Source of the DNA: Candidatus Sumerlaeota bacterium | Lineage (GTDB): Bacteria > Sumerlaeota > Sumerlaeia > JAFGJS01 | Direction: 5' to 3' | Assembly: GCA_016928995.1 (NCBI GenBank) | Contig: JAFGJS010000093.1 | Coordinates: 1 to 30,517, forward strand | Length of the DNA: 30,517 bases | Shown here: positions 8,323 to 22,163 of the stretch, piece after piece | How the letters are laid out: each line of letters begins with the position of its first letter | Numbering within the stretch: position 1 is the first letter of the stretch | Translations under genes and position numbers: made by a program | Notes under the pieces: model-generated | What the model was told of the DNA's origin: nothing | What the model saw: the letters and a program-made list of their open reading frames with translations, nothing else | Database searches by the model: none

Positions 8323-9657
8323 ATGACAACCGATTCTGCCATTCCGGATTCTTTTTCCGTTTCATGCATCGTGCGCGGCGCGCTGCTGACGCCTCTTCCG
8401 GGCGCCGGCGACGCCGTGCGATGGGAGCCGGATGGCGCGCTGGCGATTGGATCGGATGGCCGCATTCTCGCTTCCGGTTCGGCGAACGAAATTCTCGGCC
8501 GTTTTCCCGGCGCGGCAGTGGACGATTTCAGCGGCCGATTGATCCTGCCCGCCTTCGTGGATGCGCATTTGCATTTTCCGCAGCTCGACATCATCGGCAG
8601 TCTCGGGGACAGCTTGCTCGAATGGCTGGAAAACAGCGCGCTACCGGCTGAATTACGCATGACCGATAGCCGCTACACCGAGATCGCCGCGCACATCCTG
8701 ATCCAAACATTGTTGACACACGGCATCGCCACAGCCGTCATTTACTCCTCGTCGCACACGGATGCGACCCGCACACTATTCGCCGAAGCGGAACGGAGCG
8801 GCATGCGCGCGCTGATCGGCAAGGTCAGCATGGATCGCCATGCGCCCGCGGCTCTGCTTTCCGATGCGGATCGCGACGTTGAGCAAACCGCCCGGCTGAT
8901 CGAGAAGTGGCATCAGCGCACACCGCTGCTGCATTACGTCGTGACGCCGCGTTTCGCGCCGTGCTGCTCGGACGAGTTGCTGCGAGGCTGCGGCGAATGG
9001 CTGCGCAGCCATCCGGATTTACGCTTGCAGACGCACTTCGCGGAAACTCGCGCGGAATGCGACTGGGTGCGCGAACTTTTTCCCCACGACCGCGACTATC
9101 TCGCCGTATATGAGCGGTGCGGCTTGCTCGGGCCGCGGACGATCCTGGGTCATGCGATCCAGATCGACGCCGCCATCGCAGAGCGCATCGCCGAATCCGG
9201 CGCGGCTGTGGCGCACTGCCCCTCATCTAATCTATTTCTCGGCAGCGGATTGATTCCACTTGAGCTGCTGGAAAAATTTAACGTGCGCGTGGGGCTGGGG
9301 AGCGATATTGGCGCCGGAACATCTGTTTCGATGTGGCGCACGATGCTTGCTGCGTATCAGGTTCAGCGGCTGCGCGGACGCGCGCTTTCACCGGGCAGGC
9401 TGCTGAAGATGGCCACCTGGCAAGGCGCCCGGGCGTTGGGTTTGGAGCAGGAGACTGGCGCCTTGATTCCCGGTTTGTTCGCGGATTTTCAGGTGATCGA
9501 TTGGCAACGGCATCCGCTGCTGAAGCGCAGGATGGAGCAAGGCGCGGTTGATGCGGATGCGGTCATCTCAGCCCTGATCGCTCATGCCGACGACCGCGTA
9601 ACTGAGGAAGTTCGGGTGTTGAATCGCCCCATTTGGCAGCAGCCGGTGAATGGATAA
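8323..9657 (+). CDS. guaD: Guanine deaminase
   Basis: A zinc amidohydrolase that converts guanine to xanthine and ammonia in purine salvage or breakdown. The 444 residues match the family. Metal-site motifs are in order: PAFVDAHLHFPQ (H82, H84), THFAET (H238, E241), GHAIQ (H277), and GLGSDIGAGTSVSMWRTM (D328). HCPSSNLFLGSGL is typical of guanine deaminases rather than other amidohydrolases. The open frame reaches back to a TTG at 8290, but the ATG at 8323 with CGAGGA just before it is the better start. It is followed by a 140-nt gap holding palindromic repeats. No other purine catabolism gene is near. Confidence 0.94.
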   Translation: MTTDSAIPDSFSVSCIVRGALLTPLPGAGDAVRWEPDGALAIGSDGRILASGSANEILGRFPGAAVDDFSGRLILPAFVDAHLHFPQLDIIGSLGDSLLEWLENSALPAELRMTDSRYTEIAAHILIQTLLTHGIATAVIYSSSHTDATRTLFAEAERSGMRALIGKVSMDRHAPAALLSDADRDVEQTARLIEKWHQRTPLLHYVVTPRFAPCCSDELLRGCGEWLRSHPDLRLQTHFAETRAECDWVRELFPHDRDYLAVYERCGLLGPRTILGHAIQIDAAIAERIAESGAAVAHCPSSNLFLGSGLIPLELLEKFNVRVGLGSDIGAGTSVSMWRTMLAAYQVQRLRGRALSPGRLLKMATWQGARALGLEQETGALIPGLFADFQVIDWQRHPLLKRRMEQGAVDADAVISALIAHADDRVTEEVRVLNRPIWQQPVNG

Positions 9658-9674
9658 CTGATGTTATCGCGCCA

Positions 9675-9785
9675 ACTTTGGAGTGCGCAGGCCATGCCTG
9701 CGCCGTGATCGGTGGAATTAATTCTTAAAGGCTATGCACTGGGCGCTCCACCAAGGCGGCGGCATGGCCGCCGCAGTCCAAGGCG
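9675..9785. repeat. Pair of inverted palindromic intergenic repeats
   Basis: Two copies of one element face each other in the gap after guaD. The first contains GCGCAGGC-CAT-GCCTGCGC (9685-9703). The second contains GCGGCGGC-ATG-GCCGCCGC (9756-9774). Both have an 8-bp stem and a 3-nt loop. Read in the same sense they share the flank TTGGA(G/C)TGCG, the centre GGCCATGCC and a nearby GGTGGA. The stem bases differ between copies while pairing is kept, as expected for selected RNA or DNA hairpins. They may also end transcription of guaD and the convergent gene. Confidence 0.8.
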
Positions 9786-9801
9786 TCTGAGGCGCGTAAC
9801 A

Positions 9802-10410
9802 TCAATCAATAAGTTTTGCATCTAGTGCGTCTTTATCCCATGATACATCGCCGCAGCCTTTGCGCTGGTTTTCATGCCGCGCGAGGATGAAGAGGAAGTC
9901 GCTCAGGCGGTTAAGAAAAACCAGGCACGTTCGGGATACGCTCTGTTCGCGTTCGATCAATCCGACGATTAATCGCTCCACACGGCGGATCACGGCGCGC
10001 GCCACATGCAGCGCCGAGGCCGCCGGAGAGCCGCCGGGCAGGATGAACTGCTGGAGCGGAGGCAATCCGGCGTCGAGTTCGTCGATGCGGCGCTCCATCC
10101 AGTCCACGTCGCGTTGTTCGACGCACGGATAATCCTCCGGCGGATGGTCGTCCTCGCAGGCCAGCATCGCGCCAAGGTTGAACAGCAGATGCTGGATGCG
10201 CGTCAGATCATTATCCAGTTGTTTCCGTTCTTCCGTCGCTTCGCCGGTCAGCAGCGAGCGCGCCAAGCCGATATGCGACGACGCCACGTCCAGCGCGCCG
10301 CAGGCCTCGAGCCGCGGTGAATTTTTCGGCACGCGCCGTCCGCTGAACAGCGACGTCTCGCCCGTGTCGCCCGTGCGAGTGTAAATGCTGGATTTTTTAT
10401 GCTGAGACAT
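9802..10410 (-). CDS. ATP:cob(I)alamin adenosyltransferase, PduO type
   Basis: This enzyme makes coenzyme B12 by moving the adenosyl group of ATP to cob(I)alamin. The 202 residues contain the PduO-family N-terminal ATP-binding motif TRTGDTGETSLFSG (12-25), FILPGGSPAASALHVARA in the middle, and RRVERL plus NRLSDFLFILAR toward the end. All are hallmarks of the PduO/MMAB class rather than the CobA or EutT classes. It is cytosolic. The start follows AAAAGGAG by about 12 nt. A TTTTTTTTGACAGGAT repeat lies directly upstream. No adenosylcobalamin-dependent enzyme is in view; MetH in this window uses methylcobalamin, so the product must serve another enzyme or B12 salvage. Confidence 0.95.
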   Translation of the reverse strand: MSQHKKSSIYTRTGDTGETSLFSGRRVPKNSPRLEACGALDVASSHIGLARSLLTGEATEERKQLDNDLTRIQHLLFNLGAMLACEDDHPPEDYPCVEQRDVDWMERRIDELDAGLPPLQQFILPGGSPAASALHVARAVIRRVERLIVGLIEREQSVSRTCLVFLNRLSDFLFILARHENQRKGCGDVSWDKDALDAKLID

Positions 10411-10426: not shown

Positions 10427-10465
10427 TTTTTTTTGACAGGATGAACGGGATGGACGGGATTTTTT
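10427..10465 (+). repeat. GACAGGATGAAC repeat, left copy of an inverted pair
   Basis: The copy starts with a T run and then reads TTGACAGGATGAACGGGAT, followed by a second, similar unit (GGACGGGAT) and another T run. It matches the reverse complement of 10801-10837 over most of its length. It lies between the adenosyltransferase start and the end of the small frameshifted gene. Confidence 0.8.
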
Positions 10466-10466
10466 G

Positions 10467-10800
10467 TTACTCTTTTGTACAGGGATATTGGATCGTAACC
10501 TCAAATCTTAATCGAGAAATCTGAGCATTTTGTGTCTCATTTTCTGCCTGCGCCGCCGCTCCGAATACCGCCGCGACAACTCCAATGCCGCCTTTGACTT
10601 TATTCTGATCCATTGCGGTGATTGCAACATCAAAGCTAACTTTTGAGCGGAGGTTGTCACCGTCGAAATACTGGTCGTTACTACCTTTTTGTGTGTGGAT
10701 TGATTGCGGCGCCGGGCGATTGCACACGTTTCTGCGCGGATTCCACACCTTCAATGATTTGCACAAGTGATTCTTCAATAAATTCTTTCAGGTTCATCAT
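10467..10800 (-). pseudogene. Small conserved-looking protein gene, disrupted by a 1-nt frameshift
   Basis: From the ATG at 10800 (or 10797), with AGGAG just upstream, the frame reads MMNLKEFIEESLVQII and continues to INPHTKR, then stops at once. The frame one base later continues with KGSNDQYFDGDNLRSKVSFD and ends at 10467 with a beta-rich domain (VSFDVAITA, a Gly-rich KGGIGVVAAVFGAAAQ, and SRLRFEVTIQYP). Removing one A from the run at about 10684-10688 fuses both parts into one protein of roughly 110 residues. The joined layout, an amphipathic helix followed by a small beta domain, resembles a family of small bacterial proteins I recall only vaguely (Trypco2-like in style, low confidence). 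It could be a recent pseudogene, a sequencing error or, less likely, a programmed shift. It is flanked by inverted repeats, and the right copy contains its ribosome binding site. Confidence 0.65.
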
Positions 10801-10837
10801 TTTTCTCCTGTTGATCCAGTTAATCCTGTCAAAAAAA
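10801..10837 (-). repeat. GACAGGATTAAC repeat, right copy of an inverted pair
   Basis: Read on the minus strand it gives a T run, then TTGACAGGATTAACTGGAT, then CAACAGGAG. It is the inverted partner of 10427-10465. Its last unit forms the Shine-Dalgarno of the small frameshifted gene. Confidence 0.8.
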
Positions 10838-10856: not shown

Positions 10857-11261
10857 TCAATTGCTCGTTTCACTGGATTCGGCGCGTTCGCGGATGAAGA
10901 TCTGCGGGCTGAAGTTTCGCCAGACGATGTTTCCCAGCGCCAGACCGATGCCATCCATCACCAAATCGCTGTCGTTCCAGCCGCGCCAATAGACGAACAC
11001 CTCCTGATGCCATTCGTCGCTGACGCCCCAAAGCAGCCCCAGCGCCAAGGTCCACGCCGCGCATTGCCAGGGGCGCAGACCGGGAAAGGTGTGATTCAGC
11101 GCGCGGGACATCAGAATGCCTGTGACGCAATAAAGCAGGAGATGAGCCACGGGCGTCAGATCAAGCGGACCAGTGCTCGGAAATTGGTCGCCCGGTGTGT
11201 GCGACAGCATGAAATTCACTCCGAGCCAGGCGAATAGCGGCAACCAGAAAAAACGGCGCAT
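10857..11261 (-). CDS. VanZ-like family membrane protein
   Basis: A 134-residue integral membrane protein with about four hydrophobic segments. It carries the VanZ-family signature: an acidic-HQ stretch (SDEWHQEVFVYWRGWNDSDLVMD) followed by a Gly-rich helix (GIGLALGNIVW). In enterococci VanZ gives low-level teicoplanin resistance, but most relatives have no proven role; a cell-envelope role is the most that can be said. The start is set at MRRFFW (11261), where GAGAG precedes the ATG; the open frame extends 24 codons further but that part lacks a binding site. It is transcribed divergently from serA across a 384-nt gap and ends beside the right-hand inverted repeat. Confidence 0.85.
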   Translation of the reverse strand: MRRFFWLPLFAWLGVNFMLSHTPGDQFPSTGPLDLTPVAHLLLYCVTGILMSRALNHTFPGLRPWQCAAWTLALGLLWGVSDEWHQEVFVYWRGWNDSDLVMDGIGLALGNIVWRNFSPQIFIRERAESSETSN

Positions 11262-11645
11262 AGGATTCTCTCGCGTATCATTTGTTGAAATGAGATGCAA
11301 TAAATCGTCTATCGTCCGATCTCTATTTGTCAATCCCAGTTCGATTGAGAGGGCGAATCTTGACGGCGATGGACTTCAAACCGGATTCTCTTTTGTCGGC
11401 CCCGGTTATTATATCAACAAAAATTTCACGAATTACAGCTGTTTTTTTGGAGCGATGAAGGCGAGAATGGCGCCTGAAGGATCTTAAATTGTGAGCGAAG
11501 CATGGACCGTCCCGCATTCATCCCTTGACAGCTGAAGGGAGCGCGTTTAAAAGCAACATTCGGTCGTTCGTAAAATGCTTCAGCGGAACGGCTAGCGTAA
11601 ACATCAAACCACATCATAATTTTTTTCCAAGGAAACAAAAAAACC
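11262..11645. promoter_or_regulatory. Divergent intergenic region between vanZ-like gene and serA
   Basis: I see no gene in this 384-nt gap. The serA-proximal half holds a promoter (listed separately) and an A/T-rich leader. I saw no clear hairpin, tRNA or riboswitch. The serA ribosome binding site is AAGGAA at 11629-11634, 11 nt before the ATG. Confidence 0.5.
11525..11553 (+). promoter_or_regulatory. Probable sigma70 promoter of serA
   Basis: A perfect TTGACA (-35, 11525-11530) is followed after 17 nt by TAAAAG (-10, 11548-11553, four of six matches). It lies about 90 nt before the serA start, leaving a sizeable leader. Confidence 0.5.
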
Positions 11646-21956: not shown

Positions 21957-22163
21957 ATTTAAAATTCAAAATTCGAAATCCGAAACTAATTCTCAATTCA
22001 AAATTCCAATAATCAAAATGAAGCGGTCGTTTGATCCGCCATGATTTGTCGGAATGGTCGGACTGGTCTGACAAGTCCGACCGAAAAGCCACTAGATTCC
22101 GGCCTCTCGGTGGGCCAAGGCCCACCCTACAGTCTGCGTTCAACCAGCATCCAGCATCAAGCG
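21957..22163. repeat. Nest of four different intergenic repeats
   Basis: The gap between the two nfeD genes carries distinct elements side by side. An A/T-rich AAATTCAAAATTC-type repeat spans 21957-22022. A perfect 9-bp inverted repeat, GGTCGGACT/AGTCCGACC, lies at 22056-22064 and 22074-22082. A palindrome, GGTGGGCC-AA-GGCCCACC, lies at 22109-22126. A CCAGCAT tandem (22141-22158) touches the nfeD stop codon. Such strings are, as I recall, scattered between genes in planctomycete-like bacteria. No gene is seen. Confidence 0.75.

Follow-up and report, generated by a model that had tools for sequence, protein, structure and literature searches.

Short tandem arrays with units of 6-9 nucleotides (nt) occur between the genes of diverse bacteria. 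Heptamer arrays have been described as STRR in cyanobacteria (PMC2670836), as TAACTGA repeats in Beggiatoaceae (PMC4679880) and as GGGAATC repeats in Xanthomonas (PMC4692102). The function or mode of spread of intergenic 6-9-nt arrays has been left open (PMC2670836; in PMC4679880, "no mechanism is evident").

The contig analyzed here, a stretch of 30,517 nt from a Candidatus Sumerlaeota bacterium (hereafter, the window), contains two such arrays that face each other across one small gene. This arrangement raises the question of what kind of element the arrays and the gene form together, and what the arrays have to do with the gene between them. A first-pass annotation took the locus for a mobile or recombining cassette unit with no transposase of its own. 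Here, we report an analysis of the arrays in the window, across the host genome and around two families of small proteins, GxxExxY and S23, in other phyla.

Two inverted arrays enclose a single small gene

An inverted-repeat search of the window identified a pair of inverted arrays built of the 9-nt word ACAGGATNN, at 10428-10459 on the plus strand and 10806-10837 on the minus strand. The arms are 32 nt each, 84% complementary and separated by 346 nt, with a run of T on the outer side of each array. The features of the locus are as follows.

9802..10410, minus strand: cobalamin adenosyltransferase (PF01923), flanking gene; profile match, E 9.6e-59
10428..10459, plus strand: left array, T7 then GACAGGATGAACGGGATGGACGGGA, three ~9-nt units; inverted-repeat arm, exact motif
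10467..10800, minus strand: enclosed small gene, ~106 aa, split by a frameshift, without a Pfam or NCBIfam family; ORF and profile searches
10684..10697, minus strand: frame-change site CACACACAAAAAGG; comparison of frames
10805..10809, minus strand: Shine-Dalgarno AGGAG, overlapping the inner right-array unit; read in the sequence
10806..10837, minus strand: right array, inverted copy, T7 GACAGGATTAACTGGATCAACAGGA; inverted-repeat arm, exact motif
10857..11333, minus strand: VanZ-like flanking gene; E 3.3e-4, under the curated cut-off

Exact copies of GACAGGATKAACKGGAT lie at 10435-10451 (plus) and 10814-10830 (minus), with no other exact copy of this 17-mer in the window; when up to three mismatches are allowed, there are 4 sites versus 0.15 expected from shuffles. 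The arms score 39, a value that none of 3000 random 350-bp intervals of the host genome approaches (one reaches 30 and none reaches 36). A predicted RNA stem, formed by pairing of the arms, closes the whole unit. The unit is located between two minus-strand protein genes, 19 bp from the stop of the VanZ-like gene and 17 bp from the start of the cobalamin adenosyltransferase gene, and not inside 23S rRNA. Thus, the claims of the first-pass annotation on the layout of the locus were correct: the facing repeat copies are real, apart from arm coordinates that were a few bases off, they enclose exactly one small, frameshifted gene, and the innermost unit of the right copy contributes to its Shine-Dalgarno.

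The enclosed gene starts with the ATG at 10800, runs for 39 N-terminal codons to a TAG and is continued by the ORF at 10467-10778, which lies in the +1 frame; this frameshift could be an assembly error. No homologs were detected in the other 39 genomes of the phylum or among the plasmids and viral contigs searched, except for four weak partial matches in Riemerella phages (38-39% over 64 aa). The gene product has no PADLOC defense match, no match to GxxExxY (PF13366/TIGR04256) among the Pfam and NCBIfam profiles, and no match to PF05635 (S23).

Two further arrays in the window, AAATTCAAAATTCGAAATCC (~7-8 nt) at 21960-22005 and GTCGGAATGGTCGGACTGG (~9 nt) at 22047-22085, lie between protein genes, with no inverted partner detected. 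Separately, positions 9657-9806 hold a MITE-like element with ends ACTGATGTTA..TAACATCA and an inner GCAGGCCATGCCTGC REP pair, which overlaps the stop codon of an amidohydrolase gene; its family numbers ~11 copies in 1.41 Mb of sampled host sequence, several of them with 5-bp target duplications, and its inner palindrome matches REPs beside a RAYT gene (L059).

Polarity of the repeat is fixed across the host genome

The host genome assembly comprises 4.55 Mb in 161 contigs, of which 1.41 Mb (31%) was sampled for arrays and inverted repeats. Across the genome, GACAGGATNAACNGGAT with at most one mismatch occurs at 71 sites, compared to 0 for the reversed control. The sampled sequence contains 72 arrays, 48 of which make up 24 close pairs, and the polarity is identical in all 24: GACAGGAT reads inwards from either side. 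The expectation that inverted pairs enclose short genes holds for the two wide pairs (gaps of 342 and 362 bp), which contain one ORF apiece (the gene in the window and, in the nuo operon, an ORF of 108 aa), but not for the other 22, which are gene-less hairpins with gaps of 35-208 bp.

More generally, 58 inverted repeats scoring at least 34 were found in the 1.41 Mb, versus 1 in a dinucleotide shuffle. Short-word arrays of many families, such as ACGCAGAGA, CACAGAGGA, GGGTCTA and CTTGCT, account for many of them. Most array pairs are narrow and gene-less, and the wide pairs with a short period mostly hold a single small ORF. Chance or low complexity as the source of the arrays is ruled out by the reversed control and the shuffled genome.

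At the variable positions of the word, the two arms in the host genome match each other less often than expected by chance (997 of 1000 shuffles scored higher), so interruptions of the stem recur at intervals of about nine bases. In contrast, the arms of Spirosoma hairpins are matched. A perfect-palindrome model was accordingly rejected, stem perfection being no shared rule of these repeats. In one genome (G005, contig C140, L071), a segment of ~180 bp is repeated three times in tandem, with a GACAGGAT hairpin in each copy.

Arrays of the same kind bracket GxxExxY and S23 genes

The first-pass annotation stated that similar strings are common between genes in several phyla, and a genome search proved this correct. 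Rather than standing alone as a repeat, the arrays are of the kind that brackets genes for GxxExxY nucleases. We surveyed two families, GxxExxY, a PD-(D/E)XK nuclease (PF13366/TIGR04256), and S23, a four-helix bundle (PF05635), in genomes that include Bacteroidota, Planctomycetota, Acidobacteriota and Verrucomicrobiota. Within 300-bp flanks, inverted short-period arrays bracket 39 of 46 GxxExxY genes and 29 of 34 S23 genes; in other phyla, the respective counts are 10 of 11 and 25 of 27. When the distance is limited to 150 bp, brackets are present at 27 of 35 GxxExxY genes, compared to 9 of 258 small host ORFs (3.5%) and 13 of 3000 random intervals (0.4%), a highly significant enrichment (Fisher p 1.6e-23). 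About 15% of the GxxExxY and S23 genes have no detectable bracket.

The period of the arrays differs between the two families (p 8e-8). It is 8-10 nt in 35 of the 39 bracketed GxxExxY genes and 7 nt in none, versus 7 nt in 19 and 6-8 nt in 28 of the 29 bracketed S23 genes. A set of plasmids fetched later displays the same split, with seven cyanobacterial S23 genes bracketed at a period of 7-8 nt and two GxxExxY genes at one of 9-10 nt. With its 9-nt period, its arm score and its one small gene, the window unit fits the GxxExxY-type architecture, and its array class is the class that brackets GxxExxY genes elsewhere. In particular, GACAGGAT arrays bracket GxxExxY genes on host contig C127 and at loci L353, L358, L352 and L089, the taxa involved being the host genome, Spirosoma, Verrucomicrobiia and Lewinellaceae.

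Because sequence search found no solved structural homolog of GxxExxY, and the AlphaFold model built without an alignment is poor (pLDDT 45), the chemistry of the putative enzyme is read from the E, D and ExK residues of PD-(D/E)XK nucleases that these proteins retain. GxxExxY was not found in viral contigs, and its PADLOC matches are weak, mostly to Cas4.

Several loci show variations on this layout. At L089 (5700-6440), a complete GACAGGAT hairpin, instead of a single arm, lies on either side of the GxxExxY gene. On host contig C97 (164895-165558), a DMP19-like gene (PF14300) is located between CGCAGAG and GACGGGAT arrays, a further type of cargo. In cyanobacterial plasmids (L398, L399 and L404), S23 genes with heptamer-like or octamer-like arrays lie inside CRISPR operons, in the cas6/cas4 or cas10/cmr3 spacer.

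Array sequence follows the phylogeny of the nuclease

Across 42 GxxExxY genes, the similarity of the arrays correlates with the similarity of the proteins (Mantel r 0.32), and the correlation persists with between-genome pairs alone (p < 0.0002). For 36 S23 genes, it is weak (r 0.19, p 0.002). We further divided the GxxExxY arrays into the GAT type (ACAGGAT, CACAGAT, CGCGGAT and similar) and the RAG type (CGCAGAG, CACGAAG, on either strand). In the maximum-likelihood tree of GxxExxY, all 11 GAT-type arrays, GACAGGAT included, fall into one half (17 rows), and the other half (25 rows) contains RAG-type arrays exclusively, a degree of clustering that none of 500 shuffles matched. The two labels were set after the arrays had been inspected; the Mantel test is independent of them. 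The agreement between arrays and tree extends across phyla. Three genomes (G000, G041 and G081) contain both array classes, each with its own half of the nuclease tree, which excludes host composition as the cause of this agreement.

Orthologous spacers differ in their array content

Comparison of orthologous sites reveals units that are present in some genomes and absent from others. In the host, the nuoC|nuoD spacer contains the GACAGGAT-bracketed 108-aa ORF and a GxxExxY gene, and another GxxExxY cassette, this one with CGCAGAG ends, lies in the nuoE/nuoF spacer. The nuoC|nuoD spacer of four relatives measures 30, 34, 46 and 73 bp, the one of 46 bp being a solo heptamer array; in another relative, a GxxExxY gene directly follows nuoD. 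Across the host region as a whole (contig C127, 28131-33200, L031), the operon genes nuoC, nuoD, nuoE and nuoF are split by the two GxxExxY cassettes, a PIN-domain-like gene and other small ORFs.

The spacer between the cupin and pgl genes was compared in 36 Spirosoma genomes. Depending on the species, it holds a GACAGGAT hairpin, CACAGAG-type hairpins, other arrays or ordinary short hairpins, or is reduced to 7-15 bp; the CACAGAG-type hairpins show compensatory changes between species. These spacer comparisons, along with the absence of the enclosed gene from related genomes, are compatible with lineage-specific gain of modular units; they are no demonstration of transposition. No target-site duplication was seen by eye at the window unit or the nuo unit, and neither a duplication nor an excised product was seen for any GACAGGAT unit.

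The notion of a mobile cassette without a transposase stands in part. Its cassette-like character is well supported by the polarity fixed in 24 of 24 pairs, by the absence of the gene from 39 genomes of the phylum and by similar units that interrupt housekeeping operons, the genes on either side being direct neighbors in relatives; movement itself was not directly observed.

Alternative explanations and the preferred reading

Bracketing, fixed polarity, a period specific to each family, co-variation of array and nuclease, gene-less hairpins and presence or absence at orthologous spacers are direct observations. The arrays could act at the level of RNA, as sites of control or processing where a GxxExxY or S23 protein would bind to paired arrays, both in the transcript that encodes it and in others, with autoregulation, stabilization or RNase III entry as the outcome and with no mobility beyond ordinary gene gain. 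Co-variation of array and protein suits RNA binding as well as DNA binding, the units are located between operon genes, the predicted stem encloses the entire window unit, and RNase III is known to excise the intervening sequence (IVS) of the Coxiella burnetii 23S rRNA, which carries an S23 ORF (PMC4990558). Nevertheless, we regard control at the RNA level as unlikely: one orthologous spacer hosts different array families, a single operator would need less than symmetric brackets on two sides, and a preference of GACAGGAT clusters for operon spacers was rejected, with 17 of 24 lying between co-directional genes versus a background of 64%, which is no enrichment.

Somewhat less probable still is that a normal transposase mobilizes the arrays as ordinary MITE- or REP-like repeats and that small genes became trapped between copies by chance. 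The host does possess a genuine MITE family with ACTGATGTTACGCA ends, several copies of which show 5-bp duplications and three of which contain a GACAGGAT hairpin, and because this MITE sometimes contains the hairpin, part of the hairpin spread may be hitch-hiking. It also encodes nine Y1 transposases (Y1_Tnp, PF01797), but these have longer palindromes of their own and none of the nine loci carries the GACAGGAT repeat, and a REP/RAYT origin of the arrays was rejected on this ground; moreover, chance trapping predicts neither the period nor a sequence that tracks the enclosed protein. That paired arrays are binding sites of a global regulator of the IHF/HU type, as proposed in Geobacter metallireducens, seems very improbable to us. 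The main text on that organism describes the same architecture, tandem GTTGCTYN, TCTCCGTSY or MTYCTGA on opposite strands at a variable distance (PMC2700814), yet such a role leaves both the bracketing of GxxExxY and S23 genes and the tracking of sequence unexplained. Replication slippage or assembly noise without function is hardly credible and, taken over all the arrays together, is refuted. Slippage can yield short tandem units, and the host assembly is a fragmented MAG in which the enclosed gene is frameshifted; against this, the same class of arrays recurs in many independent assemblies and in complete plasmids, its polarity is fixed, its sites far exceed the reversed control and it is linked to gene families.

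In the best-supported reading, array and protein belong together as a pair, and the gene between the arrays, whether GxxExxY or not, is transported as a cassette; everything beyond the pairing we infer. On balance, we slightly favor reading 10428-10837 as a foldback-type cassette with array ends and a small gene as cargo. Since its ends belong to the GAT type, found around one half of the nuclease tree, the cassette most likely derives from a GxxExxY element and is non-autonomous. As the enclosed gene has no GxxExxY match, it is on the basis of its ends that the unit is classed as such a relative. In the mechanism that we envisage, the arrays would be substrate or binding sites of the GxxExxY nuclease, and a GxxExxY protein such as that of the GACAGGAT-bracketed copy in the nuo operon might act in trans at array hairpins or cruciforms, the window unit having probably arrived at its site as a block. 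A nuclease that reads the array word as a hairpin or cruciform would explain why the brackets are symmetric, why arrays and proteins diverge together and why some copies lack a gene. By analogy to the rRNA intervening sequences that bear S23 genes, pairing of the arms as a stem in the mRNA may allow the operon to tolerate the insert.

Relationship to known elements

The nearest architecture is that of the eukaryotic foldback transposons (FB, Galileo and Tetris), which have inverted ends made of tandem repeats and a variable middle and are often non-autonomous (PMC4079207). The window unit likewise has inverted ends built of short tandem repeats; it differs in lacking a eukaryotic-type transposase and target duplication, in its units of 7-9 nt and in its partner, a small prokaryotic nuclease or S23 gene. 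The 23S rRNA IVS likewise has a single small gene, there of the S23 type, between stem-forming inverted ends and is inserted into a transcript (PMC4990558), but it resides within 23S rRNA and has not been described with short-period arrays at its ends, whereas the units here lie in protein operons and those with GACAGGAT are of the GxxExxY type. Thus, we class the window unit with the foldback/IVS kind, and there is a real possibility that it represents a class of its own.

Among bacterial repeats, the paired octamer and nonamer arrays of Geobacter metallireducens have the same architecture, and their TCTCCGTSY resembles the reverse complement of CACGGAGA-like RAG-type units; they were published as putative IHF/HU sites, and no link to GxxExxY or S23 was found in the main-text passages on them (PMC2700814). 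The heptamer arrays (PMC2670836, PMC4679880 and PMC4692102) are intergenic, with 7-nt units that form hairpins or inverted pairs in some genomes, and arrays of this kind flank S23 genes here; however, the TAACTGA sets are chiefly direct repeats, and S23 is unmentioned in PMC4679880 and PMC4692102. REP/RAYT systems also comprise dispersed intergenic palindromes, but the RAYT genes here have other palindromes, without GACAGGAT arrays. MITEs, including ERIC and Correia-type elements, are non-coding inverted-repeat elements of 150-200 bp in spacers; target duplications here are confined to the ACTGATGTTACGCA family, with none at GACAGGAT units. Finally, an integron gene cassette has one downstream attC, compared to the arrays on both sides of the window unit. 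A search of the main texts of open-access literature yielded no paper that ties such arrays to S23 or GxxExxY genes and none containing the repeat strings; related strings gave one irrelevant match.

What is new here is that the arrays acquire a partner gene and a rule, whereby 7 nt goes with S23 and ~9 nt with GxxExxY, and the sequence tracks the protein. It is also conceivable, at not quite an even chance in our judgment, that a so far unrecognized superfamily of bacterial mobile cassettes exists in which a small protein (GxxExxY or S23) is matched with inverted arrays, reads its own word and diversifies jointly with it. Gene-less hairpins and arrays around foreign genes, such as the window unit, would then ride in trans, and ends and relics of such cassettes would make up the unexplained arrays of heptamers and nonamers in cyanobacteria, Geobacter, Xanthomonas, Beggiatoaceae and many uncultivated phyla. 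Single-gene inserts occur even inside housekeeping operons, such as nuo. The rule that connects array and protein is directly testable, and would assign a role to two widespread families of small proteins whose function is unsettled.
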